Shown: piece after piece, positions 6,152-21,043 of the stretch | Numbering within the stretch: position 1 is the first letter of the stretch | How the letters are laid out: every line of letters starts with the position of its first letter | Program-made: the position numbers and the translations under genes | Assembly (NCBI GenBank): GCA_003645645.1 | Contig: QNBH01000010.1 | Span: 1 to 33,954, forward strand | From: Spirochaetota bacterium | GTDB lineage: Bacteria; Spirochaetota; Spirochaetia; SPDA01; B32-G16 | Reading direction: 5' to 3' | DNA length: 33,954 nt | The notes under the pieces: model-generated | What the model was told of the DNA's origin: nothing | Database searches by the model: none | What the model saw: only the letters and a program-made list of their open reading frames with translations

Positions 6152-6166
6152 AAGCTTATATACTCC

Positions 6167-6949
6167 TTACTTTCTGAATGCCTCCAGATATGCGTCTGCA
6201 TATATTTCTTTGTTCATGACAAGTTCTGCCGTCAAAATAGCATTTACAAGTTCTTCATCAAGCACATCACATATTACAGCATCCATCCCGTTTGCTATCA
6301 TCATAACGGCAAAAGTTCTGTTTATGAGTCTTTTATGCTTTGCACCGTTGGAGATGTTGCTTAACCCGCAGACAACATGACAGGGAGGATCGGAGAAGAG
6401 CTGGAATTGGTTTGCGGCACTTAAAATCTCTTTGGCTTGATCCTGCATGTATTTAAGAGGCATTACTATGGGATCGAGGTAAAGCCTATCCGGTGTTATG
6501 TCGTACTCCATGGCTTTTGCAACGATCTTGCCCGCATTTTCTACTCTTTTATCTGCGCTTTTCGGACTTCCCGCTTCATCCATAACCAGCCCAATTATGG
6601 ATGCCCCGTGTTCTGCTATTATTGGAAGAATCTCGTCCAGCTTTTCCTCCACTGCGGTGGTGGAGTTAACCAGGGGTGGTTTTTTGCACACAGGGATAGC
6701 CTCTTTGAGCATGGAAGGCTTATTGTTATCTATGGAGATGGGTACATCCACCTCCTTCTGTACCTGTTCTATCATCCAGCATAGATCTTCGGCCTTGTTG
6801 GAGGCAGTACCGAGATTAACATCTATATAACTGGCCTTACCATCGGCCTGTTTTCTCGCCCATTCTCTTATTACATCCCCGTCTTTATTTACAATTGCTT
6901 CTTTGATATCTTTGAATCCTGCGTTTATTCTTTCACCGATTAATATCAT
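6167..6949 (-). CDS. acsE: Methyltetrahydrofolate:corrinoid/iron-sulfur protein methyltransferase
   Basis: A 260-residue TIM-barrel enzyme that moves the methyl group from 5-methyl-tetrahydrofolate to the cobalamin of the corrinoid iron-sulfur protein. The length matches the Moorella enzyme (262). Pterin-binding signatures are present: GERINAGF at the N-terminus, IDVNLGTASN, ISIDNNKP, PLVNSTT, LDPIVMPL with its conserved Asp, and CGLSNISNGAKHKRLIN, whose Asn takes part in methyl-donor activation. The start is supported by AAGGAG 7 bases upstream. The gene follows acsD by 12 bp and precedes the uncharacterised 257-residue gene by 15 bp, so all three form one transcript. It is intact, with no missing key residue seen. 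Confidence 0.96.
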   Translation of the reverse strand: MILIGERINAGFKDIKEAIVNKDGDVIREWARKQADGKASYIDVNLGTASNKAEDLCWMIEQVQKEVDVPISIDNNKPSMLKEAIPVCKKPPLVNSTTAVEEKLDEILPIIAEHGASIIGLVMDEAGSPKSADKRVENAGKIVAKAMEYDITPDRLYLDPIVMPLKYMQDQAKEILSAANQFQLFSDPPCHVVCGLSNISNGAKHKRLINRTFAVMMIANGMDAVICDVLDEELVNAILTAELVMNKEIYADAYLEAFRK

Positions 6950-6961
6950 TTAAGCTCTCCT

Positions 6962-7918
6962 TTATTCTGTTTTTTCTATTATTTTTCTCACAATACTTAT
7001 GGCTTCAGGATGTGCCATCACCAGAATATCCGCACCTGCATGCATATATACGCCTGCACAGGTTGCTTCCCACAACGGACCGCGCTTCGAGAGTTTACCC
7101 CAGCCGGGTAGAATGTCCTCGTCAGCAACGGCTTCTTTAACTCTCCATACTTCACCGCCTACATCACATATCTGGGGCATAGCCATGAGGTTATCCCCTT
7201 TAAGCCCCGCTATTCTAGCCCTTTCCAGGATGGTATAGACGTAGTCGAATCCGTAGCCCAGTGCAGCGGTTGTCTGAAACATTACAACATCTTTAAGATC
7301 GAAACCTGCATCCTGTAATAGAATGTTGACCTGTTTTCCTATATTGATATCCACAGGCGCCTCGGAGATAATCTTATGTTTATCTGCTTTACAGAGAGCT
7401 ACTATTGTCATGTAGTTTGTCTCTTTAGCCGAACCGATAAGACAGTTTTCTCCCTTTGCAGCCTGCGAACATTCTGGCAAAATATGATTGTCTTTCTCAT
7501 CATCACCACATCCCCAGATAATAAGCGGTACATCAACAGCCTTTAACACATCCTGAACGACTTTTGAGCATTCTTCCGGAGATTTGTCCTTTACAGCCGG
7601 ATCGGCACCGATGAGTCTAAGGCTTATCAGATCAACTCCGAACTCCTCAACGGCCTTTTGCGCCCACTCTACAGGGGAGTTTATCTCTTTACCTATGGCA
7701 TCTTTAAGAACATCGGGCCAATTGGGGAGTGTATCCGCCACATAGCCGGCAATTACGGTTTTATGGGGAGATTCCCCTTCGAATGAGAGAAAGGGAAGAG
7801 TAGACTGCCCGCCTACCGTTATTGTCTTTGACCTCGTTCCACCTTGCTCACTGGTAGCACCTATTGTAACTTCGTTTATTCGGGATACCCATTTCTCTTT
7901 TACATCAGGAATTTGCAT
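6962..7918 (-). CDS. acsD: Corrinoid/iron-sulfur protein, small subunit
   Basis: A 318-residue TIM-barrel subunit that pairs with AcsC to form the corrinoid iron-sulfur protein, the methyl carrier between AcsE and acetyl-CoA synthase. Family features include the start VTIGATSEQGGTRSKTITVGG (in part), PFLSFEG, SPVEWAQKAVEEFGVDLISLRL, IIWGCGDDEKD, and the C-terminal GPLWEATCAGVYMHAGADILVMAHP stretch, which faces the corrinoid. The length is normal for the family. AGGAGG lies 5 bases before the start, inside the end of the upstream ATPase gene; the two coding regions overlap by 14 bp, indicating translational coupling. It is followed closely by acsE. Confidence 0.96.
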   Translation of the reverse strand: MQIPDVKEKWVSRINEVTIGATSEQGGTRSKTITVGGQSTLPFLSFEGESPHKTVIAGYVADTLPNWPDVLKDAIGKEINSPVEWAQKAVEEFGVDLISLRLIGADPAVKDKSPEECSKVVQDVLKAVDVPLIIWGCGDDEKDNHILPECSQAAKGENCLIGSAKETNYMTIVALCKADKHKIISEAPVDINIGKQVNILLQDAGFDLKDVVMFQTTAALGYGFDYVYTILERARIAGLKGDNLMAMPQICDVGGEVWRVKEAVADEDILPGWGKLSKRGPLWEATCAGVYMHAGADILVMAHPEAISIVRKIIEKTE

Positions 7919-8672
7919 TTAAACCTCCTACTTTGTTTATGATTTCATCTATATGATCCAGTATTGGAGAATTGTTTAATTCTTTTACCGTCTCACCCTT
8001 ATAAATCAGCTCTTCCAGCTCAGGATCGAAGGGGATATCACAAAGCAGTTCAATACCGATGTCGGAAAGACGATCGTGGATTACAGGAAGCCTATGGTCC
8101 TGAACCATGTTGGCAACCAGATAACGGTTCTTTATTCTGGTATCAAGGCTGTCGGTAATTTCCTCAATTTTTTTTGCGGAATGAAGGGAAAGGGGGTTAT
8201 CGCTTACAACGATCAGAAGAGCGTCTATATTAGAGGTGGTTCTTCTGCTTATATGCTCCAACCCTGCCTCATTATCTATTACAACCCAGGAATAGGATGG
8301 TGTTAGATCATCGGAGAACTTTCTTATCATGTTGTTAAGAGAGCAGTAACAGCCCGCCCCTTCTCCTCTACCCATTGTTATAAGGTCGAATCCGTCTGCT
8401 TCCTCTATTATTTGATGAAGCCCGGCCTCCACATATTGAGGTTTTGACATTCCCGGAGGAAAGTTTTTTATTTCCTGAAGTATCTCCTCCCTGAGATCGC
8501 CTATTGATTTTCTTGAGTTCAAACCCAGAAGGGGGGCAAGATTCGAATCTGGGTCTGCATCGATTGCGAGTACGGGAGTTTGTCCAAGCCTACACAGCCT
8601 GGTAATCAGCAGAGCAGCGATGGTTGTCTTGCCTGTACCGCCCTTCCCGGAGACGGCTATGCTCTTAGCCAT
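7905..8672 (-). CDS. acsF: CooC/AcsF-type nickel-insertion ATPase
   Basis: A 255-residue P-loop ATPase of the MinD/CooC group. The deviant Walker A motif GKGGTGKTT is at residues 9-17. The DADPDSN switch is at 38-44. A C-x-C pair (C108, C110; GAGCYCSLNN) corresponds to the metal-binding pair of CooC dimers. Family members load nickel into the C-cluster of CO dehydrogenase or the A-cluster of acetyl-CoA synthase. Since a second, distinct CooC lies upstream of cooS, I assign this acs-embedded copy to acetyl-CoA synthase maturation (acsF), by context. It overlaps acsV by 16 bp and acsD by 14 bp, so all three are translationally coupled. A role shared between both enzymes is the alternative. Confidence 0.85.
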   Translation of the reverse strand: MAKSIAVSGKGGTGKTTIAALLITRLCRLGQTPVLAIDADPDSNLAPLLGLNSRKSIGDLREEILQEIKNFPPGMSKPQYVEAGLHQIIEEADGFDLITMGRGEGAGCYCSLNNMIRKFSDDLTPSYSWVVIDNEAGLEHISRRTTSNIDALLIVVSDNPLSLHSAKKIEEITDSLDTRIKNRYLVANMVQDHRLPVIHDRLSDIGIELLCDIPFDPELEELIYKGETVKELNNSPILDHIDEIINKVGGLNANS

Positions 8673-10558
8673 GCAGGCCCCCTCCTGAAAAGCTCTATAT
8701 CCGTATGGGGGAGAAAGAGTGCCTTCTGGAACTCCTCAACAAAGTCGTTTGCCCCCATGAGATCGTAATAGGTACAATTCTCACGGATATGCTCTATTTT
8801 ATAGAAAGCTTCTTTATAAAATGCTACCATTTTGGCACCTTCTATGGAAGTATTACCTACAAACTTGATTCTCTCTCTCGGAATAGGGGGAATTAAGCCG
8901 ATTGCAACAGCATTCTCCACATCGATGTAATTTCCGAATGCTCCGGCGATATAAAAGTGCATAATATCGGAGAACTTTAACTCCAACCTTTCGAGAAGAA
9001 TTTTGGTAGCTGCAAAAATTGCCGCTTTTGCGGTAATAATATTTTCTATATCTGATTCTGTTATGTAAATAGGTTCTTTACCATTTGAACTTTCCCGTTC
9101 TGCAAGAATAAAACGCCTTATTCCGTTTTCCTCTGCTATTCGATGGGAGCTGTCGGAGACAAAGAGACCCGAACGATTTATTATTCCCGCATCGAGAAGT
9201 ACCGCTACAAGGTCTATGATACCGGAACCGCATAAACCTCTCGGTGGCTTGTCCCCTATGGTAACATATTTTATCTCGTCGCCTTCCCTGTATACCTTTT
9301 CTATGGCACCTCTTTCCGCTCTCATCCCGCACTCCACACTGGCACCTTCCAATGCCGGTCCAGCGGAAGCGGAGCAGGATATAAGCCAGTCCTTGTTTCC
9401 GATGATGATTTCCCCGTTTGTTCCTATATCTATCAAAAGGGATAGCTCCTCGGCTTCACTCATGCCTGTTGCCAGTATCCCGGCAGTAATATCGCTTCCT
9501 ACCCAGCCGCTAATTCCGGGAAGTGAGTATAGGAGACCTCTTGGGCATATTTTAATACCTACTTCTGCAGCCCTTAAAGGAGGTGGTGCCGTAGAGGTAG
9601 GAACATAGGGAGAACGTCGAATATAGTCTGTGGGTAAACCCAGAAGAAAATGACCCATTGCGGTGTTCCCTGCACAAACAACTGCCGTTATGTTCTTTAA
9701 GCTTATGTTGTTGTCTTTAGCTAACCCTTCTATTAGTTTATTGATATCCTCAACAAGGAGCCTTTGAAGCTCCTCCACACCCTTTTTCTCCGCCATGATC
9801 ATTCTGCCGGTTACCTCCCGGCCGTATATACCACCCGAATTGAAGCATGCCTTGGCATCCAGTGTATCGGTTGTATTCGCATCCACAAGATGTGCTACTA
9901 TGGTAGTTGTACCCATATCGACCACTACCATGTAGTTTTTATTCTCAAAATTCCCACCTTCGATATTCATTATTTCTGCTATGTCCCTTCTTAAGCCAAC
10001 GGTGGCCGTAACCCTGTAATTGCTTTCACGCAATATTTGGGGAAGTGTACGCAGGATTTTAAGACCCATCTGCATGGAGCGGTATTTGAGTTTTTTCTTT
10101 ACCTCGTCGCTGACCCTCTGATGATCGGAGGTGTTGTTTTCCAGGGTAGGTTTTTCAAGTTCAAGGTATATTTTGGTTACCAGGGGTGAGGAAGTGAATC
10201 CTTCTCTTTCTGCCAGTCTTTTCTGGAAAACCCTGAACCTCTCCGCTTCTGTGTCTGCGACCACCTTTTCGGTAGCCAGGGTCTCTTCCGGAATTTCTAC
10301 TTCGAGATCGCTAAGTATGTATGCCATGCAGGCAAGAACATAACTCTTCTGGATCTCTTCACGGGTAAGCTTTCCTGAGACTTTTGCATTGATGTTACCG
10401 TTTTTTACGATCATCTTGCAGCGACCGCAGATACCATCCCCGCCGCAGATATTGTTGATCGTTATATCCGCTGCATGGGCTGCTTCCAGTAGCGTAGTTC
10501 CCCTATTTACGGTAACGGTTTTGTTTTGCGGCTGAAAGACTACCCTGCATTGGTCCAT
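8657..10558 (-). CDS. acsV: ATP-dependent reductive activator of the corrinoid protein (RACo)
   Basis: A 633-residue protein that reduces accidentally oxidised cob(II)alamin in the corrinoid iron-sulfur protein at the cost of ATP. The N-terminal plant-type ferredoxin has the expected [2Fe-2S] ligands C38, C44, C47 and C77. A linker follows. The remainder is an ASKHA-fold (DUF4445) ATPase with MVVVDMGTTTIVAHLVD, CAGNTAMGHFLLGL, SLLIDIGTNGEIIIG, GLCGSGIIDLVA and a C-terminal FYIAGAFGNYID segment. The length is as in characterised RACo proteins. It lies 17 bp after acsC and overlaps the downstream ATPase by 16 bp. The ribosome site is weak (GAGGGA), so translation may depend on the upstream gene. 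The electron donor could be a ferredoxin or the adjacent diaphorase module (inference). Confidence 0.94.
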   Translation of the reverse strand: MDQCRVVFQPQNKTVTVNRGTTLLEAAHAADITINNICGGDGICGRCKMIVKNGNINAKVSGKLTREEIQKSYVLACMAYILSDLEVEIPEETLATEKVVADTEAERFRVFQKRLAEREGFTSSPLVTKIYLELEKPTLENNTSDHQRVSDEVKKKLKYRSMQMGLKILRTLPQILRESNYRVTATVGLRRDIAEIMNIEGGNFENKNYMVVVDMGTTTIVAHLVDANTTDTLDAKACFNSGGIYGREVTGRMIMAEKKGVEELQRLLVEDINKLIEGLAKDNNISLKNITAVVCAGNTAMGHFLLGLPTDYIRRSPYVPTSTAPPPLRAAEVGIKICPRGLLYSLPGISGWVGSDITAGILATGMSEAEELSLLIDIGTNGEIIIGNKDWLISCSASAGPALEGASVECGMRAERGAIEKVYREGDEIKYVTIGDKPPRGLCGSGIIDLVAVLLDAGIINRSGLFVSDSSHRIAEENGIRRFILAERESSNGKEPIYITESDIENIITAKAAIFAATKILLERLELKFSDIMHFYIAGAFGNYIDVENAVAIGLIPPIPRERIKFVGNTSIEGAKMVAFYKEAFYKIEHIRENCTYYDLMGANDFVEEFQKALFLPHTDIELFRRGPAWLRA

Positions 10559-10575
10559 CTACTTTTTCCCTCAAA

Positions 10576-11913
10576 TCATTGTTTCGCCATTTTTTGAAGG
10601 AAAGCCGGAATCTCTCTGGCGTTTTCAGGACCTATTATCACTTCTTCCCATTCGGATGTATCTTCTATCTCTGCCCTGAAAATCGGAAGCAGTCCCGGAA
10701 TAATGAGTTTCCTGTGCTTTACCTTCTCCACTACTTTTTGTTCCTGCAGAGTCTTAACGACCTTTTCTGCAGAAATCTTATCGCCTGCGTATGCGTTGAG
10801 CACGCCGAGTCCCTCTGTATCCACCACACATATATAAGCGGGGACTTTGCTTCTCTCCACTTCCCCTGCCACGCTGAAATAAGTTAAGGAGAAGTTGGTA
10901 GTAAACATTACGGGTGAGTTTTCGGCTACATTGCCGATTTCGTAAAGCTTGGCTTCTACAGTATTTGGAACCTGAGGATTGGTGTAAACATCCTGGATGG
11001 TGGTAAGTATAGGGAGAATCTCCCATGGCTCTGAACCATTGATCAGGACGATAGCGCTGTACTTGGCAGCATAAATCGCTCCCAGAACCGTCTCCTCTTC
11101 CAGAGGTTCCGCCGTTATCTCTGTCATGGCAGGATAGCCGAACTCCCTGAATCTCTGTCTGAGTGCTGCTCTTCTGGCTATGGTAAGTGAACGGAGAGTG
11201 TCCCCCAGGTTATCTGTTTTAAAAGAGAGAATCAGGTTTTCGGCACCCTTCTCCCTGGCTTTGTTAGTAAGGTCAGCCAGTTCTTCCAGATTGGAGCCTC
11301 CCACAGCCAGAGGCAGTTTTGTGCTTGCCGACAGTTCTGCCATGGTATCGATATTGGAAGATTCGGCTCTGTAAAGTAGAGGATTTTTATGTTTGATTGT
11401 CTCTGCTGCGGATTTCATCTTTCCGGCATCCCTACCAATAAGGATAACCGGTACCTTGCTGTTTTCGGCTACAAGTTTTGCCCTCTTTCCGGGATCATCC
11501 ACCCCGTCCACTTCAACCGCAGAAAAGGAAACCTTTATGGTATCACCTACCCTGACCCACGCGCTCTTATTTATCTTTTCCACGAGGGCTGTTGCTTCCT
11601 CGTCGGAAAGAGAAGATGGTATCCTTACCGCTATACCGGTGCGTCTGTGGAACTTCTCCTCGTGGCGAAACATAACGGTCTCCTGCCCGATCTCGTAGCT
11701 GTTCTCTCCGATACCGATCTTTATCAGCTTCATTGGAGGAGCCGAAGCTTCTGCAAGACTCTCAGAAGCCTCTTCACTTATATGTGGACAATCGGAGAGA
11801 GCGCGCTGTTTTGCCGCCACCTGCATTGCAAAAGCCATACAGGTAGGAAGACCACAATCCTTACAGTTTGTTTTAGGAAGATTTTTGTATATCTGCATTC
11901 CGGTTAAAGCCAT
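10576..11913 (-). CDS. acsC: Corrinoid/iron-sulfur protein, large subunit
   Basis: About 445 residues. The N-terminal domain carries a [4Fe-4S] cluster; counted from an upstream GTG, its ligands are C19, C22, C27 and C44 in the NCKDCGLPTC motif, which reduces the cobalt. A TIM barrel follows, and then a C-terminal cobalamin-binding domain (VFTTNFSLTYFSVAGEVE, YAGDKISAEKVVKTL). The open frame begins at a GTG (11919), but I prefer the ATG at 11913 (MALTGMQIYKNLP). GGAG is then 8 bases upstream, and relatives start with the same M-x-L-T-G-L/M-x-I-Y pattern. The protein is the methyl acceptor of AcsE and the methyl donor to AcsB. It is separated from acsB by about 136 bp, the largest gap inside the operon. 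Confidence 0.95.
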   Translation of the reverse strand: MALTGMQIYKNLPKTNCKDCGLPTCMAFAMQVAAKQRALSDCPHISEEASESLAEASAPPMKLIKIGIGENSYEIGQETVMFRHEEKFHRRTGIAVRIPSSLSDEEATALVEKINKSAWVRVGDTIKVSFSAVEVDGVDDPGKRAKLVAENSKVPVILIGRDAGKMKSAAETIKHKNPLLYRAESSNIDTMAELSASTKLPLAVGGSNLEELADLTNKAREKGAENLILSFKTDNLGDTLRSLTIARRAALRQRFREFGYPAMTEITAEPLEEETVLGAIYAAKYSAIVLINGSEPWEILPILTTIQDVYTNPQVPNTVEAKLYEIGNVAENSPVMFTTNFSLTYFSVAGEVERSKVPAYICVVDTEGLGVLNAYAGDKISAEKVVKTLQEQKVVEKVKHRKLIIPGLLPIFRAEIEDTSEWEEVIIGPENAREIPAFLQKMAKQ

Positions 11914-12049
11914 AAACACAACTCCTTATATCACGGATTTAATTTTCCACTCCACATACCGCATGCTGGAACGGATATTTGCTTCTATTGATCTATCTTA
12001 CCGCAAGCCCTCTTGGACATTGTCTGTGCCGGCTATCGGACTTGTGCTT
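11914..12049. other. Intra-operon gap between acsB and acsC
   Basis: About 136 bases without a gene. It contains the acsC ribosome site (GGAG near 11922-11925 on the minus strand). I see no convincing hairpin, promoter or small gene in the rest. It could separate translation or allow transcript processing between acsB and acsC. Confidence 0.4.
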
Positions 12050-14266
12050 CTACATAATCGCTTCCATCTGCAGAGCAGGATGTCCTATCTTCTCCAGGTA
12101 CTGAAGAAGGGTTTCCGGATCTTCTGCTTCTTCCTCTGTGGCGATTTTATCAAACAGATCGGATATCCCCTGCCTTTCGAGTTCGGCTTTAAGCCTGTCA
12201 CCCACCTCTTCTTTGAGTTGTTTGGTCATCCACACGATCCGCTTCTGTCCGCCCTCCGCGGAGATGAACTTGGGACTGCTTATGTAGAGTTTACCTATTC
12301 CGACAAATCCGGGAGTCTGCACTCCTCCTCCTATCTGACCTGCAAGGGTGGAGAAGGTCATCCCAACGGGAGTCATGCCCGTATAGTCCCTGTCTACAAT
12401 CATGACTCCGTTGGCTTCGGGTACAATGGCCGCAATGCACTCGAAACAGCCGCAGGAGGTCATAGGGTCTTCCATCATGGAGTAGGCATTGAACCGCTTG
12501 AGGTTACCGTTGGACTTAACCTCTATGTAGTCGTTTATGTTCTTCCACATCCCCTTTACCGGATCGAGGCACTCTCCCTTGGCAACCGGCTCGTTCGGCC
12601 CGTGAGGGTCGATCTGATGAGAAGCCTTGCAGTCAAGCCATGTATAGGCGCCGCACAGCCCAAGCCTCTGCGGAGTAACTATACAGACATGGTTGGGAGC
12701 ATAGGACTGACAGAGGGTGCATGAGTAGTACTCATCTACATCTTCGTCTGTCATTCCGCCGATCTTGTCATCCCTCTGGCTGTAAACCTCTTTTGCCTCT
12801 TCTATAAGTTTTGCAACCTTTTCCTTTTCGGTGTAGAGCTTAACCTGTACCCTATCTACAATTTTGGAGAACTCTTCATGCATTCGGGCAAGAAGAATCT
12901 CACCGAAGTGCTTGATCTTAAAGCCCTTTGCATGGGCCTCTTTACTTATACGTACCCAGATGATATTTCTCTGACCCATGTGGAAGATTCCGTTGGCACA
13001 GGAGATAAACTCATGGATCCTTCGTTCGAGCACACTTTCAAAATCTTCCTGGAAATCCCTTCCAGCAACCTCAACTACTATACCCAGGGGATAGGCTTCC
13101 CCTTCTTTCATTTCATCTATCTCCTGCCCGATTACCTCTATCTTTCCGTCTTCAACTTCCTCCATGGGTTTCATCCGCAGAAGCTCAAAGGCATCGGTAT
13201 ATTTACCACCGAACTGGACGTACATGTTCTCCTTTCGCACCCTTTCGCCTTCGAAACCGGCTCCATAGGGTACAGGAATTGGTATTTTCTCTATCTTTAT
13301 GGTAAGTCCTCTTAACTCTATGGCTCTGCTTATTATCTCTTCGAGCCTTATCCCGGAGATCACATGCTCGTAGGTGCATATTCCGGTGGGAAGAATCTGG
13401 GGGATTTTTACATCGGCTATAACCGGGAATCCGAAGTTGATCGCTCCTGCTGCTGTAGCATACTTGTCGTCGGTGATAAGCTGGCTGTCCTCTGCAGCCT
13501 TATCGGCTCCCAGAGCCATTACAAAGGCGTGCACCCGGTCCTTGTTGTATAGAAGAATCTTGCGGGCAGCATCCATATCACCCGGCTCTATGCCTCCAAA
13601 TGTCATGGCAGAACGAGCTGCAAAGTTAAGGGCATGTACCGCTGCGGTTATCTCCTTCCCGTAGGGTACAAGGAAGGTATCCCAGTTCATTTCGATGTTC
13701 TCCTCGGCCAGTTGTTCTGCAATCGCCCGGCCATTGGTATGACCGGCCATGAATACAAGTATGTTTCTCTCCTGCAATCCTCTGACCAGCTTAACCGCAT
13801 CCTCATTCTTTTTGGTGCAGCCCACTATTGCTGCAAACCCCGGCATCCTGCCGTCTACCAGTTTAATCCCCTGAAGCCTTAAGATGTTGTCGGGGGTAAA
13901 ACCCAACCAGATACCTTGTACAGGGTTTTGCTCTCCGAGATATTTAAGCGCCTCTATTGTTTCCTCTGCAATGAGGGTCGCCACTCCCGAATCAAGTGTA
14001 TCTCCCAGGTAAGGAAGCCAGAGCTCATCCGAGGGGATATCTGCAAGAAGCTTTTTTGCCTCCTGCATACTCTCCTCCAGGTCTCCCAGCTTCTGAACTT
14101 TCTGCCCCAGAAAAAGATACATAATAGGCAGATAGTATGCGGTGTTGGGATAATCAACCGGATGTTCCTTGCCGTATTTATCTATTGCTTTCTGAAGCTC
14201 CACTTCCGCCTGACCTACAAGCTTGTGGGCGCCTCTAATTGCAGCGGTTGCTATGATTTTAGACAT
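12050..14266 (-). CDS. acsB: Acetyl-CoA synthase catalytic subunit
   Basis: A 738-residue enzyme that assembles acetyl-CoA from CO, the methyl group on AcsC/AcsD and CoA. All A-cluster ligands are found. C516, C519, C528 and C538 hold the [4Fe-4S] part (motif SCTLCQSYAPNHVC). C605 and C607 (the CGC motif) with C519 hold the two nickel ions. Each is offset by exactly ten from the Moorella numbering. The N-terminal domain that forms the CO tunnel with CO dehydrogenase is present, so this is the bacterial-type long form. AGGAGG precedes the start. In most acetogens acsB directly follows acsA/cooS; here four genes (a ferredoxin and three diaphorase subunits) lie between them on the same strand. 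Confidence 0.97.
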   Translation of the reverse strand: MSKIIATAAIRGAHKLVGQAEVELQKAIDKYGKEHPVDYPNTAYYLPIMYLFLGQKVQKLGDLEESMQEAKKLLADIPSDELWLPYLGDTLDSGVATLIAEETIEALKYLGEQNPVQGIWLGFTPDNILRLQGIKLVDGRMPGFAAIVGCTKKNEDAVKLVRGLQERNILVFMAGHTNGRAIAEQLAEENIEMNWDTFLVPYGKEITAAVHALNFAARSAMTFGGIEPGDMDAARKILLYNKDRVHAFVMALGADKAAEDSQLITDDKYATAAGAINFGFPVIADVKIPQILPTGICTYEHVISGIRLEEIISRAIELRGLTIKIEKIPIPVPYGAGFEGERVRKENMYVQFGGKYTDAFELLRMKPMEEVEDGKIEVIGQEIDEMKEGEAYPLGIVVEVAGRDFQEDFESVLERRIHEFISCANGIFHMGQRNIIWVRISKEAHAKGFKIKHFGEILLARMHEEFSKIVDRVQVKLYTEKEKVAKLIEEAKEVYSQRDDKIGGMTDEDVDEYYSCTLCQSYAPNHVCIVTPQRLGLCGAYTWLDCKASHQIDPHGPNEPVAKGECLDPVKGMWKNINDYIEVKSNGNLKRFNAYSMMEDPMTSCGCFECIAAIVPEANGVMIVDRDYTGMTPVGMTFSTLAGQIGGGVQTPGFVGIGKLYISSPKFISAEGGQKRIVWMTKQLKEEVGDRLKAELERQGISDLFDKIATEEEAEDPETLLQYLEKIGHPALQMEAIM

Positions 14267-14306
14267 CTCTAAATACCCTCCTTGCCTGGTTTCCTTATTA
14301 TATAAT

Positions 14307-15086
14307 TTAATAACTCGATACCCTGAACTTTTTCCTTCTGCATTCAGGGCATAACTCGTATATTTTTTCGCTTACTCCTGATTTTCCGTTTAACCTTTTT
14401 AAATACTGTGATGAGACAAATCGTCTCCCGCAGGATTTGCATTCTATCATAGTGATCTCGAAATCGAACATTCTTTCGAACTTGATCCCTTTAGCAGTTT
14501 CTTTTATTTTTATTGCTCCTGTGGGACAGACGTATTCGCAGGCTCTGCATCCAATACAGTTGGAGCTTCCAACATTAAGGGGGGTTATAACCTCTTTCTC
14601 CACTCCCCGATAGGCCGAGCCAATTGCATGGGCTCCTATGATTTCATTACAGACCCGGTAGCACAATCCGCATAAAATACAATCGGGTTTTCCCTTATCG
14701 AGAGGCTCGAACCTGTCGGTCCTGGCTCCGTATTTCTCTGCAAGCTTGTGCAGAGACTCAGAGCCCGGTGCTCTAAGAAGAAGAAGCTCAAGGATAAGGC
14801 GCCGTTGACGGATAACTTTTTCCGAGTTTGTAAGAACCTTTAATCCATCACTAACCGGATAAACACAGGAAGCATCCAGCCAGCTTCTCTTCTTTCCGTT
14901 TTTTTCTATGCTTAGCTCGACAATGCAGACTCTGCATGAGCCCTGTGGAGGCAGAGCCTCGTGGAAACATAGGGTTGGAATGTATATACCAAGTTCTTTT
15001 GCTGCTTCCAGAACAGAACTGCCTTCGGGCATCCTTGTTTTTTTACCATCAATTTCGATCTCAATAATTCCGGATTCTTTTTTCAT
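14307..15086 (-). CDS. HoxU/NuoG-N-terminal-like iron-sulfur subunit of the diaphorase module
   Basis: About 259-260 residues; GTG and ATG occur in tandem at the start and I prefer the ATG. Counting from the GTG, a plant-type [2Fe-2S] domain uses C41, C52, C55 and C75. The region where NuoG holds a His-Cys [4Fe-4S] cluster (about 104-120) has lost its cysteines. Two [4Fe-4S] clusters follow: C137/140/143/147 and C178/181/184/188. The C-terminus adds two C-x-x-C pairs (217/220 and 247/250), like a zinc or rubredoxin-type knuckle. There is no molybdopterin or H-cluster domain, so the protein is an electron wire, not a catalytic subunit. It directly follows the NuoF-like gene and precedes acsB. 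HoxU of bidirectional hydrogenases is the nearest functional analogue I can name. Confidence 0.88.
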   Translation of the reverse strand: MKKESGIIEIEIDGKKTRMPEGSSVLEAAKELGIYIPTLCFHEALPPQGSCRVCIVELSIEKNGKKRSWLDASCVYPVSDGLKVLTNSEKVIRQRRLILELLLLRAPGSESLHKLAEKYGARTDRFEPLDKGKPDCILCGLCYRVCNEIIGAHAIGSAYRGVEKEVITPLNVGSSNCIGCRACEYVCPTGAIKIKETAKGIKFERMFDFEITMIECKSCGRRFVSSQYLKRLNGKSGVSEKIYELCPECRRKKFRVSSY

Positions 15087-15089
15087 CAC

Positions 15090-16952
15090 TTACACCTTTA
15101 TAACCGCATCGTAACGACACACATCGAAACAAATGCCACACTTGATACACTTCTCCTGTATAATCGAATGGGGTTGTTTTCTTTCACCTACAATAGCATC
15201 CTGCGGACATCTTTTCAGACACAGCATACATCCGGTACACTTCTCTTCTAAAATAGCAAAGTTAAAAAGGTTTTTACAAACCCCTGCAGGACATTTCTTA
15301 TCGGTTATATGCTTCTCGTACTCATCACGAAAATAACGGATGGTGCTTAAAACCGGGTTTGGTGCCGTCTTGCCAAGCGCACAAAGAGAGGCATCCCGAA
15401 CAGTTTCTGCAATCTCTTCTAAAAGCTCTATATCACCCTCTTTACCTTCACCCTCGGTGATACGGTTAAGTATCTGGTATAGCTGGTAATTGCCGTCTCT
15501 GCAGGGCGTACATTTACCACACGACTCCTCTACCAGGAAAGATAAGAAGTATCTGGCCACATCCACCATGCAGGTATCTTCGTCCATTACTATCATGCCG
15601 CCCGAACCCATCATTGAGCCAACCCTGGTAAGCTCATCGAAGTCGACGGGCATATCGAGTAGCTCTGAGGGAATGCATCCTCCCGATGGGCCTCCTGTCT
15701 GCACGGCTTTGAACTTCTTCCCTCCGGGAATGCCTCCGCCTATATCAAATATTATCTGTTTTAGTGTTATTCCCATGGGGACTTCAACCAGACCGGTATT
15801 TACAACCTTGCCTACCAGAGAAAATATTTTTGTCCCCTTACTGTTTTCGGTTCCGATACTTCTGTACCAGTCGGCTCCCCTGTTGATGATTATGGGTACA
15901 TTTGCCCATGTCTCCACATTGTTGAGGTTGGTAGGCCGTTCGTACAGTCCGCTTTCGGAGGTATGGATGTGCTTTGTTCTGGGCTCCCCAACTTTGCCTT
16001 CTATGGAAAGCATGAGGGCTGTAGACTCCCCGCACACAAAAGCACCCCCACCCTTTGAGATTTTAATATCGAAGGACAGGTCTGTGCCCAGGATATTCTC
16101 CCCTAAAAGTCCGTACTCTCTGGCTTTCTCCAGGGCTACGAGCAGGTTTTCAACCGCCAGCGGGTATTCATTTCTCACGTAAACATACCCCTGATTTGCT
16201 CCGATGGCATAGGCTCCTATTATCATCCCCTCGATAACAGAATGGGGATTACCCTCCAGCAGGCTTCTGTCCATATAGGCGCCGGGGTCTCCCTCGTCTG
16301 CATTGCAGATAACATATTTTATATCACCCTCTGCATTACGGGTAGAACGCCACTTCCTTCCGGTGGGGAATCCGCCTCCCCCTCTGCCTCTTAAGCCCGA
16401 TTTTTCTATCTCTTCGATTACCTGTTCCGGAGTCATTTCTGTAAGAACTTTCGCCAGGGCCGAATAACCATCTACACCGAAATAATCCTCTATGCTTCTG
16501 GGATCTATATGGCCGTTCTGACCAAAAACAAGACGCTTCTGCCACTTATAGAATGGAATCTCCTCTTCTTTTACGATCTGTTTCTTATCTTCCGGAAGTA
16601 CGTAGAGCAGGGACTCTATGATTTCGCCGGAGAGGATAGTTTTATCTACTATTTGTATTACATCTTCCGGTTTTACATGCTGGTAGAAAATGTTATCCGG
16701 TCTTATCACCACCAGCGGCCCCTTTTCGCATAATCCATGGCAGCCGGTTTCTTTTAGTACGATGTTCTCTTCTATATTTTTCTTTTTAAACTCTTCTTTA
16801 AAAGCTGATATGAGAGATACGGCCTTATTGGCTCTACAGCCTGTACCGGCACAGATTGCAACCGACTTTTCCCATTTCTCTTTTCTTTGAGAGTATTTCT
16901 TGTTAAGCTCGTACAACTCATCTATATTTTTTATTGCTGTTGCTGTTTTCAT
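15090..16952 (-). CDS. NuoF/HydB-type NAD(P)H-binding flavoprotein subunit
   Basis: A 620-residue subunit with the three-part HydB layout. The N-terminal thioredoxin-like [2Fe-2S] domain has C34, C39, C71 and C75. The central FMN and NAD(H)-binding NuoF core has [30 protein letters not shown] and [13 protein letters not shown]. Near its C-terminal side is the [12 protein letters not shown] site for a [4Fe-4S] cluster. A C-terminal bacterial ferredoxin tail (last 52 residues) carries two [4Fe-4S] clusters. The extra N- and C-terminal domains are typical of electron-bifurcating hydrogenases and formate dehydrogenases rather than of complex I. It overlaps the NuoE-like gene by the 4-bp ATGA. The partner catalytic subunit here is most plausibly CooS (inference from synteny). 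Confidence 0.93.
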
Positions 16953-17440
16953 TTTTTACTGTACTCTTTAAGTAATCTCGAAACTTTAGATGTTACCATA
17001 TTTCCGTGATACTCCCCGTTTACTACCATTATAGGACCCAGGGCACATGCCCCCAGACAGTTTACGGTTTCGAGGGAAAACTCCCCGTCCTCCGAGGTAT
17101 CCCCGCTTTTAATTCCTATCTGCCTTTCGATTTCCTCCAAAATTTGCTGAGCCCCCCTTACATGACAGGCGGTCCCCATGCATACCTGGATGATATTTCT
17201 CCCCTTGGGCTTTAATGAGAACGCCTTGTAGAAGGTAGCCACCGAATAAACCTGATGCAGTGGAATATCGAGGTATTTTGCTGTTTCGGAAACCGATTCC
17301 TGAGGGATATAATTGAATGTTTTTTGAATTTCCTGAAGGATGGCTATAAGGGATTCGGAAGTATTATGGAATTTTTTCAAAATGCCTTTTATATCTTTTA
17401 TATCTATGCCTGTTTTTTCCTTCTCCTGGATTTGTTCCAT
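16949..17440 (-). CDS. NuoE/HydC-type [2Fe-2S] subunit
   Basis: A 163-residue thioredoxin-like protein of the 24-kDa complex I subunit family. An N-terminal helical region (residues about 20-75) includes the [16 protein letters not shown] motif typical of the family. The [2Fe-2S] ligands are C87, C92, C128 and C132 (VCMGTAC and CLGAC). With the NuoF-like subunit it forms the NADH-oxidising tip. The stop overlaps the next start by 4 bp, so the two subunits are made in equal amounts. The upstream ferredoxin gene ends 9 bp before it. Nothing is missing relative to functional homologues. Confidence 0.93.
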
Positions 17441-17449
17441 GGTTACATT

Positions 17450-17965
17450 TTATCCTTTCTCAAGACTTACCTTGTATTTTCGAATACTCTCTTTTCGTTT
17501 TTCAAGGTTAAGTTCGGAAACTTCCACATATTTTATAGCCCCTGTAGGACAACCGGCAGCACATGCAGGATCTTTGCCCTCTTCAAGCCTCTCGTAACAG
17601 AGGTCGCACTTGGTGAGTGTTTTCCCGTCGGAATCGCGTTTTATAACCCCGAAGGGACACACAATTATACAGGCATTACATCCTATGCATTTATCCCTGT
17701 TGAGGATAACCGGGCTCTCTTCGTTGGGTCTGGACATGGCCTGAGTGGGGCAAACCGCAATGCAGGGTGCATCCTTGCAATGCCTGCAGTGGATGGGGAA
17801 AGTTTCGCTCTCCTCGTATTCGAGTATTATACGGGGAAAGCGTATTTCCTCTGCATTTACTGCGCTTTCGAGAGTTTTCTCTTCGGAATGGGCTGCGGCG
17901 CATTCCAGTACGCAGGTCTTGCATGCCATACATCTTTCGCTTCTTACTACGAGAATTTTATCCAT
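17450..17965 (-). CDS. Four-cluster ferredoxin, CooF/HydN-like
   Basis: A 171-residue polyferredoxin with sixteen cysteines in four groups: C12/15/18/22, C60/63/68/72, C93/96/99/103 and C120/123/135/139. This is the layout of CooF and other DMSO-reductase-type electron-transfer subunits, each cluster being [4Fe-4S]. It lies 11 bp after cooS and 9 bp before the NuoE-like gene, so it is positioned to carry electrons between the CO dehydrogenase and the diaphorase module. There is no signal peptide, so it is cytoplasmic. I leave the symbol empty because CooF proper is defined by its partner hydrogenase, which is absent here. Confidence 0.9.
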   Translation of the reverse strand: MDKILVVRSERCMACKTCVLECAAAHSEEKTLESAVNAEEIRFPRIILEYEESETFPIHCRHCKDAPCIAVCPTQAMSRPNEESPVILNRDKCIGCNACIIVCPFGVIKRDSDGKTLTKCDLCYERLEEGKDPACAAGCPTGAIKYVEVSELNLEKRKESIRKYKVSLEKG

Positions 17966-17976
17966 ATACTGTCCCC

Positions 17977-19902
17977 TTATTCTTCCGGTTTAAAAGCCTG
18001 CTTGTACATCATGGGTTTAAGTCTTAAAGCCTTTCTCTTTTTGTCTATGTGTCTGAGCATCTTGTGGGCTGCCTTAACAGGATCCGGTTCGAATGCCCAT
18101 TTACCGCCTACCTCTTTTTCTATGTCTTCTGTGAGGTACTTGTACACATTCTTGCTCCCTTCTATGGGGAGGGGATGATTTATCAAGGTATATACCCCGG
18201 AGGCCACAAAGTACATCCCTATGGCAACTGCCTTCTCGGACATCCACTCCGGAGCTGCCCCTGCTACAGGCAGGTCGGATATATCGTTACCCAGCCCCCC
18301 TTCTGCAACAACATTGGCCAGCACACGTAGAATCCTGCTGTTATCAACACATGATCCGAGGTGCAGAACCGGAGGTATGCCTACGGCTCTGCATATTTCC
18401 TGCAATCCTTCGCCTGCATATTTAAAGGCGGTTTCAGGCTGTAATAGGCCGTGTTTAGCACAGGAGATGGCGTTACATCCGGTAGTAACAACCAGGGTAT
18501 CGTTTTTGATAAGCTCTTTTACAATTGTTATGTGGTTTTCTTCGTACTCGGTATTGGGATTGGAGCAGCCCACCACACCTGCAGCCCCTCTGAGCCTTCC
18601 CTGAATGACAGCATCGTTTAGAGGACGGTAGGTAGATCGGTACTTACCTCCCAGAAATTGAAATACCGACTCGGTTGTAAAACCTGCCACAAGCTTCTCC
18701 GTATGTTCAGGAAGCAGTATGCCGTGACCGTTTCTATTGGCGAAGTTTTCGATTGCAGACTCTACTATCTGCCTGGCTATTTTTACGGCATCCTTCTCGT
18801 TGAACTCGATGTGCTCAACACCATCGATTTTAGCCTTTGGTGATGTTGTAATCAGCTTCGTGTGAAATCGTCTGGCCACATCCCTGAGACCGGGCATGAG
18901 GCACTGCACATCTATTACCATGAGGTCCACAAGACCTGTAACCATTGCAAGTTCCTGCTGTAGAAAACTGCCTGCAATGGGAATTCCCCGCCGCATGAGT
19001 ATCTCGTTGGCGGTACAGCAGATTCCTGCAACTCCGATACCGTCTGCGCCCTTTGCCTTAGCCTTTTCTACAAGCTCTTTATCCTGTGCCACTGTAGCGA
19101 TAATGTCTGAGAGCACAGGCTCATGGCCGTGTACTACCAGGTTGATTTTCTCTTTTTTAAGGATACCAAGGTTGGCCATGGATTTGATGGGGTTGGGTAT
19201 TCCGAAAAGCACATCCTGGAGCTCAGTGGCAATCATCGACCCGCCCCATCCGTCTCCAAGGGAAGCTCTCATCCCCTGTTTGATAACATTTTTATAATCT
19301 GCATCCACCCCCATGGTGGTGCGGTGCATGATCTCCACGATTTCTCTGTCTACAGAACGTGGGAATATCCCCAGTTCTCTCCATAGTTTTTGTCTTGCAG
19401 GAGGAGCTGTGGTTGCCATCACTATGGTGCCTTCCTGCCTGCCAAACTCTTCCATGGTTTTTCTGGCGACATCCTTTGCGATTTCTTTTATATCCCTGTC
19501 CTTGGTCTCAACTCCGTATATTTTGGCTACAGCCTTCAGTTTTTCTTCGTTTTTTATTTTATAGTCGCTGTCGGGATTCTCCGCCGCCATTAAGAGAGTA
19601 TGGGAGATATCCCGGCCGTGGTCGGAATGGGCTGCCGAACCTCCTGCTATCATCCTTACCAGATTTCTGGCTACGATTGTATCGGCATTGGCTCCGCAAA
19701 TACCAACCTGCGGCCCTTCCCCGAAGGGATCAATACGGCAGGGGCCCATGGTACATATTCTGCAACATATTCCCATGGTACCGAACCCGCACTGGGGTTG
19801 CATCTTTTCATACCTGTCCCATACCACCTCTATATTCTGTTCTGCTGCGTAAGCTCTTAACTGGCGAGATGCTTCGTCTGCAAACTTAAGTTCTTTGGCC
19901 AT
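17977..19902 (-). CDS. cooS: Nickel-dependent carbon monoxide dehydrogenase catalytic subunit
   Basis: A 641-residue enzyme that interconverts CO and CO2 (called AcsA when bound to acetyl-CoA synthase). D-cluster ligands are C38 and C46. B-cluster ligands are C47, C50, C55 and C69, each one position below the Carboxydothermus CODH-II numbering. The C-cluster ligand motifs are all present: VVHGHEPVLSD (His), GICCTANE, VQCLMPG, GVVGCSNPN, TTGCNAISC and HLGSCVDNSR. The start has GGAGG 5 bases upstream. It heads the operon on the minus strand and is separated from cooC by 385 bp with its own candidate promoter. Its neighbours suggest dual use, with AcsB and with the NADH-linked module, but the sequence alone cannot show which complex forms. 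Confidence 0.97.
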   Translation of the reverse strand: MAKELKFADEASRQLRAYAAEQNIEVVWDRYEKMQPQCGFGTMGICCRICTMGPCRIDPFGEGPQVGICGANADTIVARNLVRMIAGGSAAHSDHGRDISHTLLMAAENPDSDYKIKNEEKLKAVAKIYGVETKDRDIKEIAKDVARKTMEEFGRQEGTIVMATTAPPARQKLWRELGIFPRSVDREIVEIMHRTTMGVDADYKNVIKQGMRASLGDGWGGSMIATELQDVLFGIPNPIKSMANLGILKKEKINLVVHGHEPVLSDIIATVAQDKELVEKAKAKGADGIGVAGICCTANEILMRRGIPIAGSFLQQELAMVTGLVDLMVIDVQCLMPGLRDVARRFHTKLITTSPKAKIDGVEHIEFNEKDAVKIARQIVESAIENFANRNGHGILLPEHTEKLVAGFTTESVFQFLGGKYRSTYRPLNDAVIQGRLRGAAGVVGCSNPNTEYEENHITIVKELIKNDTLVVTTGCNAISCAKHGLLQPETAFKYAGEGLQEICRAVGIPPVLHLGSCVDNSRILRVLANVVAEGGLGNDISDLPVAGAAPEWMSEKAVAIGMYFVASGVYTLINHPLPIEGSKNVYKYLTEDIEKEVGGKWAFEPDPVKAAHKMLRHIDKKRKALRLKPMMYKQAFKPEE

Positions 19903-20149
19903 GATTTCCTCCGGTATTTTGATCGTATGTATATTGCGTTGAAAACTTACAGGGATAAGGGAATATTTTTAATAACATACCTCAGAGAGTTGGGCTTTGG
20001 CTTTTCTTCGTATTTTCTAATATAAATATATGGAAATATTGCAGTAGATAGCAAGGGAGCCAAGCTCGTATTAATACCCTTTTGCCCTGAAAGCTTAATA
20101 AGGCATTTTGCATGTAAAGCTTCATTGCTGTTATACAACCTTCGGCCTT

Positions 20150-20178
20150 ATTGTAGCAGTTCTTCTATTTCATTACAA
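20150..20178 (-). promoter_or_regulatory. Candidate sigma70-type promoter of the cooS-acs operon
   Basis: On the minus strand TTGTAA (20173-20178) and TACAAT (20150-20155) are exactly 17 bp apart, four and five matches of six to the consensus. Transcription would start near 20143, giving a leader of about 240 bases before cooS. This is supported by consensus and position only. Confidence 0.4.
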
Positions 20179-20253
20179 GTGGCAAGCATGAAAATTTTAA
20201 TAAGGTTCGGATTTATACACCAGATAGGTATAAAACCGTGGTTTTTTTAGTCC

Positions 20254-20284
20254 TAAAAAGTGTCAAAAAGGCTGGCCCGACACC
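20254..20284 (-). terminator. Probable intrinsic terminator after cooC
   Basis: Just after the cooC stop the minus strand reads GAGGTGTC, a 14-base loop, then GACAC and TTTTT. About ten pairs form if two G-U pairs are allowed, followed by a T run. This would separate cooC transcription from the cooS operon, at least partly. Confidence 0.45.
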
Positions 20285-20287
20285 TCT

Positions 20288-21043
20288 TTATAGTTTATGA
20301 ATGAGCTCTTCCACCTGTTGTAAAGGCCGTCCCTGAACTTCCATTGCCGTAATGATGCGAAGGTTGATCTTTTTTATTTCGCTGGAATACTCGATATGTC
20401 CAACCAGGGGTAGATCTCCAAGGTTCTCTTTCAGGAATTGAAGCTCCTCCTCGTCTTGAATTTTATTACCCACTACAGCAAGCTTCTTTATTCCTATGTC
20501 TCCTGCAAGTTTCTCTATCCGATGGGAGGTTTCCAGGCTTGCCCTGCTGGGCTCAACTACTATCAGCATTACATCTACACCCAGAGCCGTACCCCTTCCC
20601 AGATGTTCAATGCCTGCCTCCATGTCCAAAAGCACCCATTCTTCCCTTGCGATAACAAGGTGAGTAAGCAGGCTCTTGAGGAACGCATTCTCCGGGCAGG
20701 CACATCCCCCTCCGCCTCTGGATACGGTACCCATCACCAGGAGTTTTATCCCTTTGTGCTCAATACAGTACCGGTCGGGAATATCATCAACCTTTGGATT
20801 CATTGTGAAAAACGGGGCCGGCTGGCCCGGTTCTACACCAGTTCTTTCCGCTATCAGCTCCTTCATCTCCGAAATGGGGGTAATCTTCCGGTTTTCCGGA
20901 ACGCCGAGTATTCCGAAGAGGTTCATGTCGGGATCTGCATCGATGGCGATTACCCTGTCTCCCCTTTCGCTTATCACCCTTGCCATGAGCGCAACAAGGG
21001 TGCTCTTCCCCACACCTCCCTTTCCTGTTACGGCAATCTTCAT
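20288..21043 (-). CDS. cooC: CO dehydrogenase nickel-insertion ATPase CooC
   Basis: A 251-residue P-loop ATPase. The deviant Walker A motif GKGGVGKS is at residues 7-14, the DADPDMN switch at 35-41, and the metal-binding C-x-C at C114 and C116 (GGGCACPENAF). These cysteines match the CooC dimer site that binds nickel for insertion into the CO dehydrogenase C-cluster. AGGAG lies 5 bases before the ATG. It lies upstream of cooS on the same strand, as in many acetogens, but with 385 bp and a likely terminator between them. The second CooC-family ATPase inside the acs operon has a different loop sequence (GAGCYC), consistent with a division of labour between the two metal sites. Confidence 0.94.
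   Translation of the reverse strand: MKIAVTGKGGVGKSTLVALMARVISERGDRVIAIDADPDMNLFGILGVPENRKITPISEMKELIAERTGVEPGQPAPFFTMNPKVDDIPDRYCIEHKGIKLLVMGTVSRGGGGCACPENAFLKSLLTHLVIAREEWVLLDMEAGIEHLGRGTALGVDVMLIVVEPSRASLETSHRIEKLAGDIGIKKLAVVGNKIQDEEELQFLKENLGDLPLVGHIEYSSEIKKINLRIITAMEVQGRPLQQVEELIHKL

Follow-up and report, generated by a model that had tools for sequence, protein, structure and literature searches.

A question raised by this locus is why a complete bifurcating-type NAD(H) module should lie inside an operon for CO dehydrogenase/acetyl-CoA synthase (CODH/ACS). According to reviews, only reduced ferredoxin can drive this enzyme because the CO2/CO potential is low (PMC7793690), and the CODH/ACS type of Moorella and Clostridium autoethanogenum is usually presented as depending on ferredoxin alone (e.g., PMC7793690). 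The window (the whole stretch of 33,954 nucleotides analyzed here) belongs to the draft genome of an uncultured Spirochaetia bacterium (380 contigs, 97% complete) and contains the following genes:

20288..21043, minus strand: cooC-like nickel-insertion ATPase (MinD/ArsA-type P-loop ATPase; syntenic upstream of cooS in relatives)
17977..19902, minus strand: cooS, catalytic Ni-CODH, 641 aa (NCBIfam TIGR01702, CO_DH_cata, 686 bits vs a cut-off of 478)
17450..17965, minus strand: four-[4Fe-4S] ferredoxin, CooF/HycB/WorS-like, the 'S' subunit (Fer4_11)
16949..17440, minus strand: NuoE/HydC/BfuC, [2Fe-2S] (2Fe-2S_thioredx)
15090..16952, minus strand: NuoF/HydB/BfuB, FMN and NAD(H) site, N- and C-terminal extra clusters (Complex1_51K, NADH_4Fe-4S, Fer4, 2Fe-2S_thioredx)
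14307..15089, minus strand: HoxU/BfuA, Type 2, C-terminal four-Cys extension, GTG start (Fer2_4 and two 4Fe-4S)
12050..14266, minus strand: acsB, acetyl-CoA synthase of bacterial type, 738 aa (NF040764, CODH_ACS, 1035 bits, cut-off 800)
10576..11919, minus strand: acsC, corrinoid protein large subunit (NF003195, 500 bits, cut-off 306)
8657..10558, minus strand: acsV, corrinoid activator (NF040756, 599 bits, full-length, under the cut-off of 800)
7905..8672, minus strand: second cooC/acsF-like ATPase (syntenic in relatives)
6962..7918, minus strand: acsD, corrinoid protein small subunit (syntenic homologues)
6167..6949, minus strand: acsE, methyltetrahydrofolate:corrinoid methyltransferase (syntenic homologues)

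The genes run in the order cooC, cooS, ferredoxin, NuoE/BfuC, NuoF/BfuB, HoxU/BfuA and acsB-acsC-acsV-cooC-acsD-acsE, with successive spacings of 11 bp, 9 bp, a 4-bp overlap and 0 bp from cooS to HoxU and 40 bp from HoxU to acsB. An earlier sequence-only reading had placed a diaphorase of four genes behind cooS in a tightly packed run lacking any H-cluster, NiFe-hydrogenase or molybdopterin gene; the coordinates of the five genes, which share one strand, and the absence of such genes between cooS and acsB were both borne out. Its assignment of the module to an operon also stands, but the extent that it gave was too small, as the unit spans about 5378–21043, from cooC through the last acs genes. 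The carbonyl-branch set of CODH/ACS (CooS together with AcsB, AcsC, AcsD and AcsE) is thus complete in a single operon. No Pyr_redox_2 NAD(P)/FAD oxidoreductase (FNOR) gene adjoins cooS/cooF in the window operon, a promoter/terminator scan gave counts not above those in shuffled sequence, and an Rfam search of the cooC-cooS gap returned no match.

The cofactor sites of the module proteins indicate what kind of module this is. In CooS, the Cys and His residues presumed to bind the D-, B- and C-clusters are invariant in 16 Bfu-linked relatives, as are the 16 Cys of the four-cluster ferredoxin in 18 relatives. The closest solved structures to this ferredoxin are HycB3 (7qv7_A) and WorS (9mqx_E), its AlphaFold model (mean pLDDT of 72, poor global superposition) having served for identification only. 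BfuC has a thioredoxin-like [2Fe-2S] domain, is closest to HydC among solved structures (8a6t_C, 7p5h_C, 7t2r_C and 9mqx_C), and its gene adjoins that of BfuB, as the Bfu family requires. BfuB combines an N-terminal thioredoxin-like [2Fe-2S] domain, an FMN domain, NADH_4Fe-4S and a C-terminal 2x[4Fe-4S] region, which matches the InterPro set of Schut et al. 2022, with SLBB at 22.9 bits slightly below the Pfam cut-off of 27. The ligands of its extra clusters (C34/39/71/75, C478/481/484/524, C554/559, C572-582 and C602-612) are present and nearly all invariant in 16 relatives.

These extra clusters bear on a simpler possibility, in which CooS electrons, relayed by ferredoxin and HoxU, would reach no acceptor but FMN and NAD(P), as they do in a Hox hydrogenase or an NAD-dependent formate dehydrogenase. 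The NuoE/F/HoxU building plan is identical in such enzymes, and the FNOR alternatives found in the same position in relatives are simple NAD(P)/FAD enzymes. However, the non-bifurcating homologues lack the extra BfuB clusters (Schut 2022, PMC9304861), while the window protein retains the [2Fe-2S] site at its N-terminus and the two [4Fe-4S] sites at its C-terminus, and its four best solved matches (7t2r_B, 9mqx_B, 7q4v_B and 8a6t_B) are all bifurcating enzymes. A purely non-bifurcating diaphorase thus appears very improbable, and the suggestion of a bifurcating-type core in the sequence-only reading gains support.

BfuA is also informative. Its best PDB match is 9mqx_A (residues 9-255, E 4e-51), against which the AlphaFold model gives TM values of 0.75/0.78, the next chain reaching 0.58. 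All of its 16 Cys, invariant in 17 sequences, are accounted for by one [2Fe-2S] cluster, two [4Fe-4S] clusters and a four-Cys extension. The A3 motif HxxxCxxCxxxxxC was not found in BfuA, nor was a catalytic domain, and the catalytic CooS and the polyferredoxin are encoded as separate upstream genes, which corresponds to Type 2 Bfu, whose BfuA is defined by the lack of A3 (and A5). The four-Cys extension occurs in 9mqx_A and in 18 of 18 CODH-type BfuAs that span the region (one of them encoded on a truncated contig that shows no CODH), and it is absent from BfuA homologues of the orphan, Nfn/Stn and Hox types. In a tree without the Firmicutes Codh-Bfu (clade 49), the window BfuB lies, with modest support, nearer to the Wor-Bfu protein 9mqx_B and MetVF-linked BfuB than to the NiFe-Bfu protein 7t2r_B.

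Which catalytic enzyme the module serves can be approached from the host genome, where the window cooS is the sole full-length copy and where FTHFS and RnfC are also encoded. A fused ferredoxin-CooS ORF of this lineage lies on contig C252. The [FeFe]-hydrogenase H-cluster domain PF02906 is absent from this genome (a Thermotoga maritima control was positive), and NiFe hydrogenase, formate dehydrogenase and Nfn each have separate NuoF/HoxU copies. A hydrogenase diaphorase is ruled out in the host genome, as PF02906 is missing and Hox has its own HoxFU, and so is a diaphorase shared with formate dehydrogenase or Nfn, both of which have their own NuoF homologue. The NAD(P) linkage of CODH proposed initially is likewise predicted by our analysis, since the other catalytic partners are provided for and no [FeFe]-hydrogenase domain exists. 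A separately encoded hydrogenase or formate dehydrogenase relying on these same genes, named in advance as the outcome that would speak against this linkage, did not appear in the host genome.

A survey of cooS neighborhoods, proposed in the sequence-only reading, revealed that at least 16 further Spirochaetota genomes share the order cooS-ferredoxin-NuoE-NuoF-HoxU-acsB, with a contiguous cooS-to-acsB run in 9 of them; because of this recurrence, the module order is not due to chance. Among 23 cooS-bearing genomes of the class, the cooS-acsB slot is occupied by the Bfu module in 13 and by a Pyr_redox_2 FNOR in three, and is empty in others. Where this ferredoxin follows an acs-type cooS, the CooS proteins group in a single clade (support 100/98) comprising 15 Bfu-linked members, 3 FNOR-linked members and 1 with neither. 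Two genomes of one genus (G128 and G211 of genus g70) share identities of 83, 88, 77, 78 and 81% for cooS, acsB, acsC, acsV and acsD, respectively, vs 43, 36, 58 and 39% for the ferredoxin, NuoE, NuoF and HoxU. Given this discrepancy (77-88% for CODH/ACS genes, 36-58% for the cassette), the ferredoxin and BfuABC appear to have been swapped as a single cassette. BfuB proteins encoded in acs operons fall into more than one clade of the best tree, although a one-clade constraint was not rejected (AU p 0.316). Scanning genome contigs with BfuA mostly recovered betaproteobacterial HoxU, and the two best matches come from Cloacimonadota genomes that encode no clear CooS and lack a cooS next to BfuA. 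A further relative (G585) carries a stand-alone ferredoxin-CooS-NuoE-NuoF-HoxU unit without ACS, its acs operon lying elsewhere without Bfu.

For CODH and Bfu, sharing an operon is not proof of a complex. BfuABC might instead be an independent enzyme (a hydrogenase diaphorase, a ferredoxin:NAD oxidoreductase or a transhydrogenase) that is merely encoded in the same operon, as gene proximity does not equal membership. Orphan BfuABC clusters without a nearby catalytic gene, one in the host genome and others in the class, some of them (in relatives and in the host) near Rnf genes, imply that the trimer may have other uses. We nevertheless give this possibility the least credence, considering that an H-cluster protein is lacking and other catalytic partners own their NuoF/HoxU, that the CooF-like ferredoxin is exchanged along with BfuABC, that the CODH-type BfuA extension is missing from the orphans, and that CooS and Bfu stand alone together in G585. 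On balance, the four-gene stretch flanked by cooS and acsB likely encodes a bifurcating-type BfuABC plus S module serving the CODH of CODH/ACS, i.e., a Type 2 Codh-Bfu.

The sequence-only reading named no characterized arrangement of this sort, but the arrangement is not unrecorded. 'Codh-Bfu' was predicted from four Firmicutes sequences (Schut et al. 2022, PMC9304861), NuoE/F/G-like COGs were listed in Wood-Ljungdahl CODH neighborhoods (Inoue 2019, PMC6344411), and nuoEF was noted beside CODH/ACS in NPL-UPA2 (Suzuki 2018, PMC6305446). As in the Codh-Bfu of Acetohalobium arabaticum and Clostridium cellulovorans, with a CODH gene, extra Fe-S subunit(s), BfuA without A3, BfuB and BfuC, a CODH gene and an Fe-S subunit cluster with BfuABC in the window and at least 16 relatives. 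In the text of PMC9304861, however, Codh-Bfu is confined to Firmicutes, the CODH genes lie between BfuB and BfuA, CO oxidation is proposed and ACS is not discussed, whereas the window locus is from Spirochaetota, has the order CooS-Fd-BfuC-BfuB-BfuA and lies within an acs operon. Wor-Bfu (WorABCSL of Acetomicrobium mobile, PDB 9mqx) shares the BfuA four-Cys extension, BfuB, BfuC and a four-cluster S subunit, and the S-L-C-B-A order of the G585 locus is the 'type 1' WOR operon order (PMC13328260); in place of CooS it uses a tungsten aldehyde oxidoreductase for catalysis, and it has no ACS link. CODH-FNOR clusters (CooS-CooF-FNOR), which fill the same slot in three relatives, share CODH, a CooF-like ferredoxin and an NAD(P) module, but the latter is a single Pyr_redox_2 flavoprotein without a bifurcating core. 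The bifurcating HydABC, HytA-E-Fdh and StnABC share the BfuB/BfuC core and differ in the catalytic unit (H-cluster, formate dehydrogenase or NADP domain), none of which is fused or adjacent in the window. The CODH/ACS of Moorella and C. autoethanogenum shares bacterial-type AcsB, acsC, acsV, acsD, acsE and CooS. To our knowledge, no Bfu genes lie between CODH and ACS in these organisms.

The module probably couples NAD(H), ferredoxin and CO2/CO, with NADH and ferredoxin confurcated toward acetyl-CoA. NAD(H) and ferredoxin would trade electrons with BfuB (FMN and B clusters) and BfuC, and the electrons may then travel along the BfuA clusters (one [2Fe-2S] and two [4Fe-4S]) to the CooF-like ferredoxin with its four clusters, this ferredoxin presumably being docked via the BfuA C-terminal four-Cys extension. 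From there they would reach the D-, B- and C-clusters of CooS, where CO2 and CO could be interconverted, CO being channeled to ACS. We infer complex formation, bifurcation, a preference for NAD over NADP and the reductive direction from these features. The homologous Wor-Bfu is reported to reduce neither ferredoxin nor NAD without the other (Schut 2021, cited from PMC9304861).

Since ACS pulls CO, the effective CO2/acetyl-CoA couple may be of middle potential, at an estimated -0.2 to -0.3 V, and NADH and reduced ferredoxin could therefore jointly drive CO2 reduction; the use of NADH would spare ferredoxin for Rnf. We tentatively propose, short of calling it probable, a confurcating CODH/ACS in which NADH and reduced ferredoxin jointly fund the conversion of CO2 to acetyl-CoA in one BfuABC-polyferredoxin-CooS-ACS assembly, the ferredoxin-Bfu cassette being a plug swapped in place among lineages. 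Such an enzyme would run against the rule that this step depends on ferredoxin alone. The potential of CO2/free CO is -520 mV. Should the true intermediate be free CO and not the ACS-bound form, confurcation of NADH and ferredoxin would have to run uphill, leaving the enzyme to act only as a CO oxidase. Operation toward CO oxidation, as proposed by Schut et al. themselves for Firmicutes (PMC9304861), would agree with the strength of CO as a donor (-520 mV), with the stand-alone unit of G585 and with the FNOR-type CODHs, linked to CO oxidation in the literature, that fill the same slot in relatives. It seems rather unlikely here, as the module shares its operon with acsB-acsE in the window and most relatives and serves the genome's sole full-length CooS, whose biosynthetic partner is ACS. 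The reaction is reversible, and thus both directions may hold.

With a full NAD(H) module of the bifurcating type inside an acs operon, and with this module apparently swapped in place or substituted by a different NAD(P) module, the ferredoxin-only rule can be tested directly. Schut et al. left open why Bfu enzymes should serve low-potential reactions; the confurcating reading suggests an explanation, namely that coupling to ACS would shift the effective potential to between those of NADH and ferredoxin. A soluble NADH/ferredoxin-driven complex converting CO2 to acetyl-CoA would, if true, be useful in gas fermentation. For the organisms themselves, the operon suggests that NADH, beside ferredoxin, may fund part of the fixation of CO2 into acetyl-CoA, and if NADH pays half of the electrons, the calculated ATP yields of such autotrophs would change.

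The operon belongs to a draft assembly (3.98 Mb in 380 contigs, the window being one piece) of an uncultured member of the class Spirochaetia, and is arranged as follows.

21043 to 5378, minus strand: acs/Bfu operon with cooC, cooS, the gene for a four-[4Fe-4S] CooF-like ferredoxin (Fd), NuoE, NuoF, HoxU, acsB, acsC, acsV, a second cooC, acsD, acsE and a last gene with no family assignment

The five genes claimed in the sequence-only reading (cooS, ferredoxin, NuoE, NuoF and HoxU) were found at precisely the positions assigned to them. From cooS to HoxU the spacings are 11, 9, -4 and 0 bp, followed by 40 bp to acsB, and the largest spacing in the operon (385 bp) separates cooC from cooS. The closing gene (5378-6151, minus strand) encodes a conserved-looking 257-aa protein with no Pfam or NCBIfam match; a 684-aa ORF elsewhere in the window (30980-33034, minus strand) has no Pfam match at E 1e-5.

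BfuB (NuoF) contains the FMN/NADH domain, an N-terminal [2Fe-2S] domain, NADH_4Fe-4S and a C-terminal 2x[4Fe-4S] domain, and it is by such extra clusters that Schut et al. 2022 (PMC9304861) tell bifurcating from non-bifurcating homologues. Its top four solved relatives are all bifurcating enzymes, namely 7t2r (NiFe-HydABCSL), 9mqx (tungsten aldehyde oxidoreductase), and 7q4v and 8a6t (HydABC). BfuA (HoxU) has neither an A3 motif nor a catalytic domain, which places it in Type 2, where catalytic and polyferredoxin subunits are separate. Its top PDB match, covering almost the full length, is 9mqx_A, the BfuA chain of an entry described as an electron-bifurcating tungstopyranopterin aldehyde oxidoreductase with NADH; the predicted BfuA model (mean pLDDT 82) gave TM scores of 0.75/0.78 on this chain and 0.58 on the next. 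The CxxC...CxxC extension at the C-terminus of 9mqx_A recurs in all CODH-type BfuA whose sequence extends that far and is absent from the orphan, Nfn/Stn and Hox types, a single pattern match (L132) lying in an unrelated context; this four-Cys extension may be where the polyferredoxin 'S' subunit docks. All 16 Cys of Fd are invariant, and the protein resembles HycB3 and WorS. In CooS, none of the presumed ligands of the D, B and C clusters is missing, the clusters being assigned by analogy with known CODHs.

Competing catalytic partners for the module were sought in the host genome. A domain search (positive for the Thermotoga maritima control) detected no [FeFe]-hydrogenase domain there, and the other candidates each have a separate NuoF: a HoxFUYH-type NiFe hydrogenase (contig C79), an Nfn-type NuoE-NuoF with GltD-fused BfuA (C38) and a formate dehydrogenase carrying a fused HoxU domain (C196). 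An orphan NuoF-HoxU on C349 (locus L119) adjoins a polyprenyl synthase gene; it and L134, L136, L137 and L138 are BfuABC-like clusters without any catalytic gene, with NuoF, a 200-aa HoxU lacking the four-Cys extension, and rnf-like, NuoE, CBS/DRTGG, PHP and HATPase genes as neighbours. Both FTHFS and RnfC occur in the host genome, and its only full-length CODH is the CooS of the window. On C252, a 506-aa ORF (L160:1299-4058, minus strand) joins the N-terminal half of a CooF-like Fd in frame to a CooS without its first 165 residues, followed by a gene for FNOR (Pyr_redox_2 NAD(P)/FAD oxidoreductase). This is an Fd-CooS-FNOR locus that either has undergone an internal deletion or was misassembled.

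The same gene order is conserved in relatives, as the survey proposed in the earlier reading revealed. Among 395 genomes of the class, 23 had a CooS match; several of the operons in these draft genomes are divided between contigs. The order cooS-Fd-(PAS-SpoIIE)-NuoE-NuoF-HoxU, followed by acsB wherever the contig extends that far, was found in 13 of these and the Bfu type in four further genomes of the phylum (G401, G434, G442 and G454); the remainder comprised cooS-Fd-FNOR-acsB (three), cooS-Fd-acsB (one), an acs operon without Fd or NAD module (four) and FNOR-type CODH only (two). A SpoIIE-phosphatase gene, mostly with a PAS gene, lies between Fd and NuoE in at least 10 genomes and is missing from the window; this operon subtype is seen in L128:8881-10541, L143, L145, L147, L149, L152, L164, L168, L169 and L171. 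In the CooS tree, acs-type CooS followed by Fd form one clade (support 100/98; 15 Bfu, three FNOR, one neither), and the other acs-type CooS sampled fall outside it in groups of 10, 8 and 4 rows.

Two other kinds of Bfu cluster were observed. Genome G585, whose acs operon has no Bfu, carries a self-contained Fd-CooS-NuoE-NuoF-HoxU cluster (L186:4216-9736) distant from that operon, ordered S-L-C-B-A like the type 1 operons for bifurcating WOR and offering a compact expression candidate. In loci L126 (4850-16216), L129 (1-9430) and L193, MetF/MetV-like and HdrC/MvhD-like genes are grouped with those for NuoE, NuoF and a HoxU-GltD-like protein of 1080 aa (Stn/Nfn type), possibly encoding a Bfu-linked methylene-THF reductase; this type co-occurs with Bfu-linked CODH/ACS in two genomes (G044 and G001).

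Two genomes of one genus, G128 and G211, share 77-88% identity in cooS, acsB, acsC, acsV and acsD, versus 43% in Fd, 36% in NuoE, 58% in NuoF and 39% in HoxU, and only one has the PAS/SpoIIE pair. The simplest reading is that the four-gene cassette Fd-NuoE-NuoF-HoxU was replaced as a unit between their lineages. That Fd appears to have been exchanged with BfuABC and not with CooS is, of all the genomic evidence gathered, what argues most strongly for Fd and BfuABC constituting a single functional plug serving CODH. Acs-linked BfuB occupy three places in the BfuB tree, although a tree that unites them is also compatible with the data (AU p 0.316).

The sequence-only reading knew of no characterised example of this arrangement; enzymes of this kind are indeed uncharacterised, but they had already been predicted, Codh-Bfu having been proposed by Schut et al. 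2022 (PMC9304861) on the basis of four sequences from Firmicutes, with CO oxidation as its suggested role. Suzuki 2018 (PMC6305446) recorded nuoEF near CODH/ACS in NPL-UPA2. In addition, Inoue 2019 (PMC6344411) listed NuoE/F/G-like COGs for the Wood-Ljungdahl group of CODH neighbourhoods; NADH modules and bifurcation are absent from the main text of an eLife 2026 study of such neighbourhoods, and the name Codh-Bfu was not found beyond Schut et al. 2022 in the literature searched. New here are the placement of Bfu between cooS and acsB, an architecture conserved in Spirochaetota, and the alternation of FNOR and Bfu in one operon slot, together with the Type 2 assignment at ligand level and the apparent exchange of the Fd-Bfu cassette.

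Beyond the parts, ligands, order, conservation and exchange observed, NAD(H) and ferredoxin would react at BfuB/BfuC, and electrons may then pass from BfuA through the polyferredoxin to CooS. Wor-Bfu provides a precedent, with strict coupling of NAD and ferredoxin (Schut 2021, as cited in PMC9304861) and three WorSL units acting as nanowires that supply one WorABC 'plug' (PMC13328260). The direction of CO oxidation would be downhill. In aceticlastic methanogens, acetyl-CoA cleavage with ferredoxin costs approximately +41 kJ/mol, which on our estimate puts the effective potential of the CO2/acetyl-CoA couple at about -0.2 to -0.3 V in the biosynthetic direction. Considering that NADH lies at -280 mV and ferredoxin at -500 mV, with a mean of -390 mV for the mixture, an NADH/ferredoxin mixture would thus be sufficient for CO2 reduction to acetyl-CoA, and by the same estimate the use of ferredoxin alone would waste energy.
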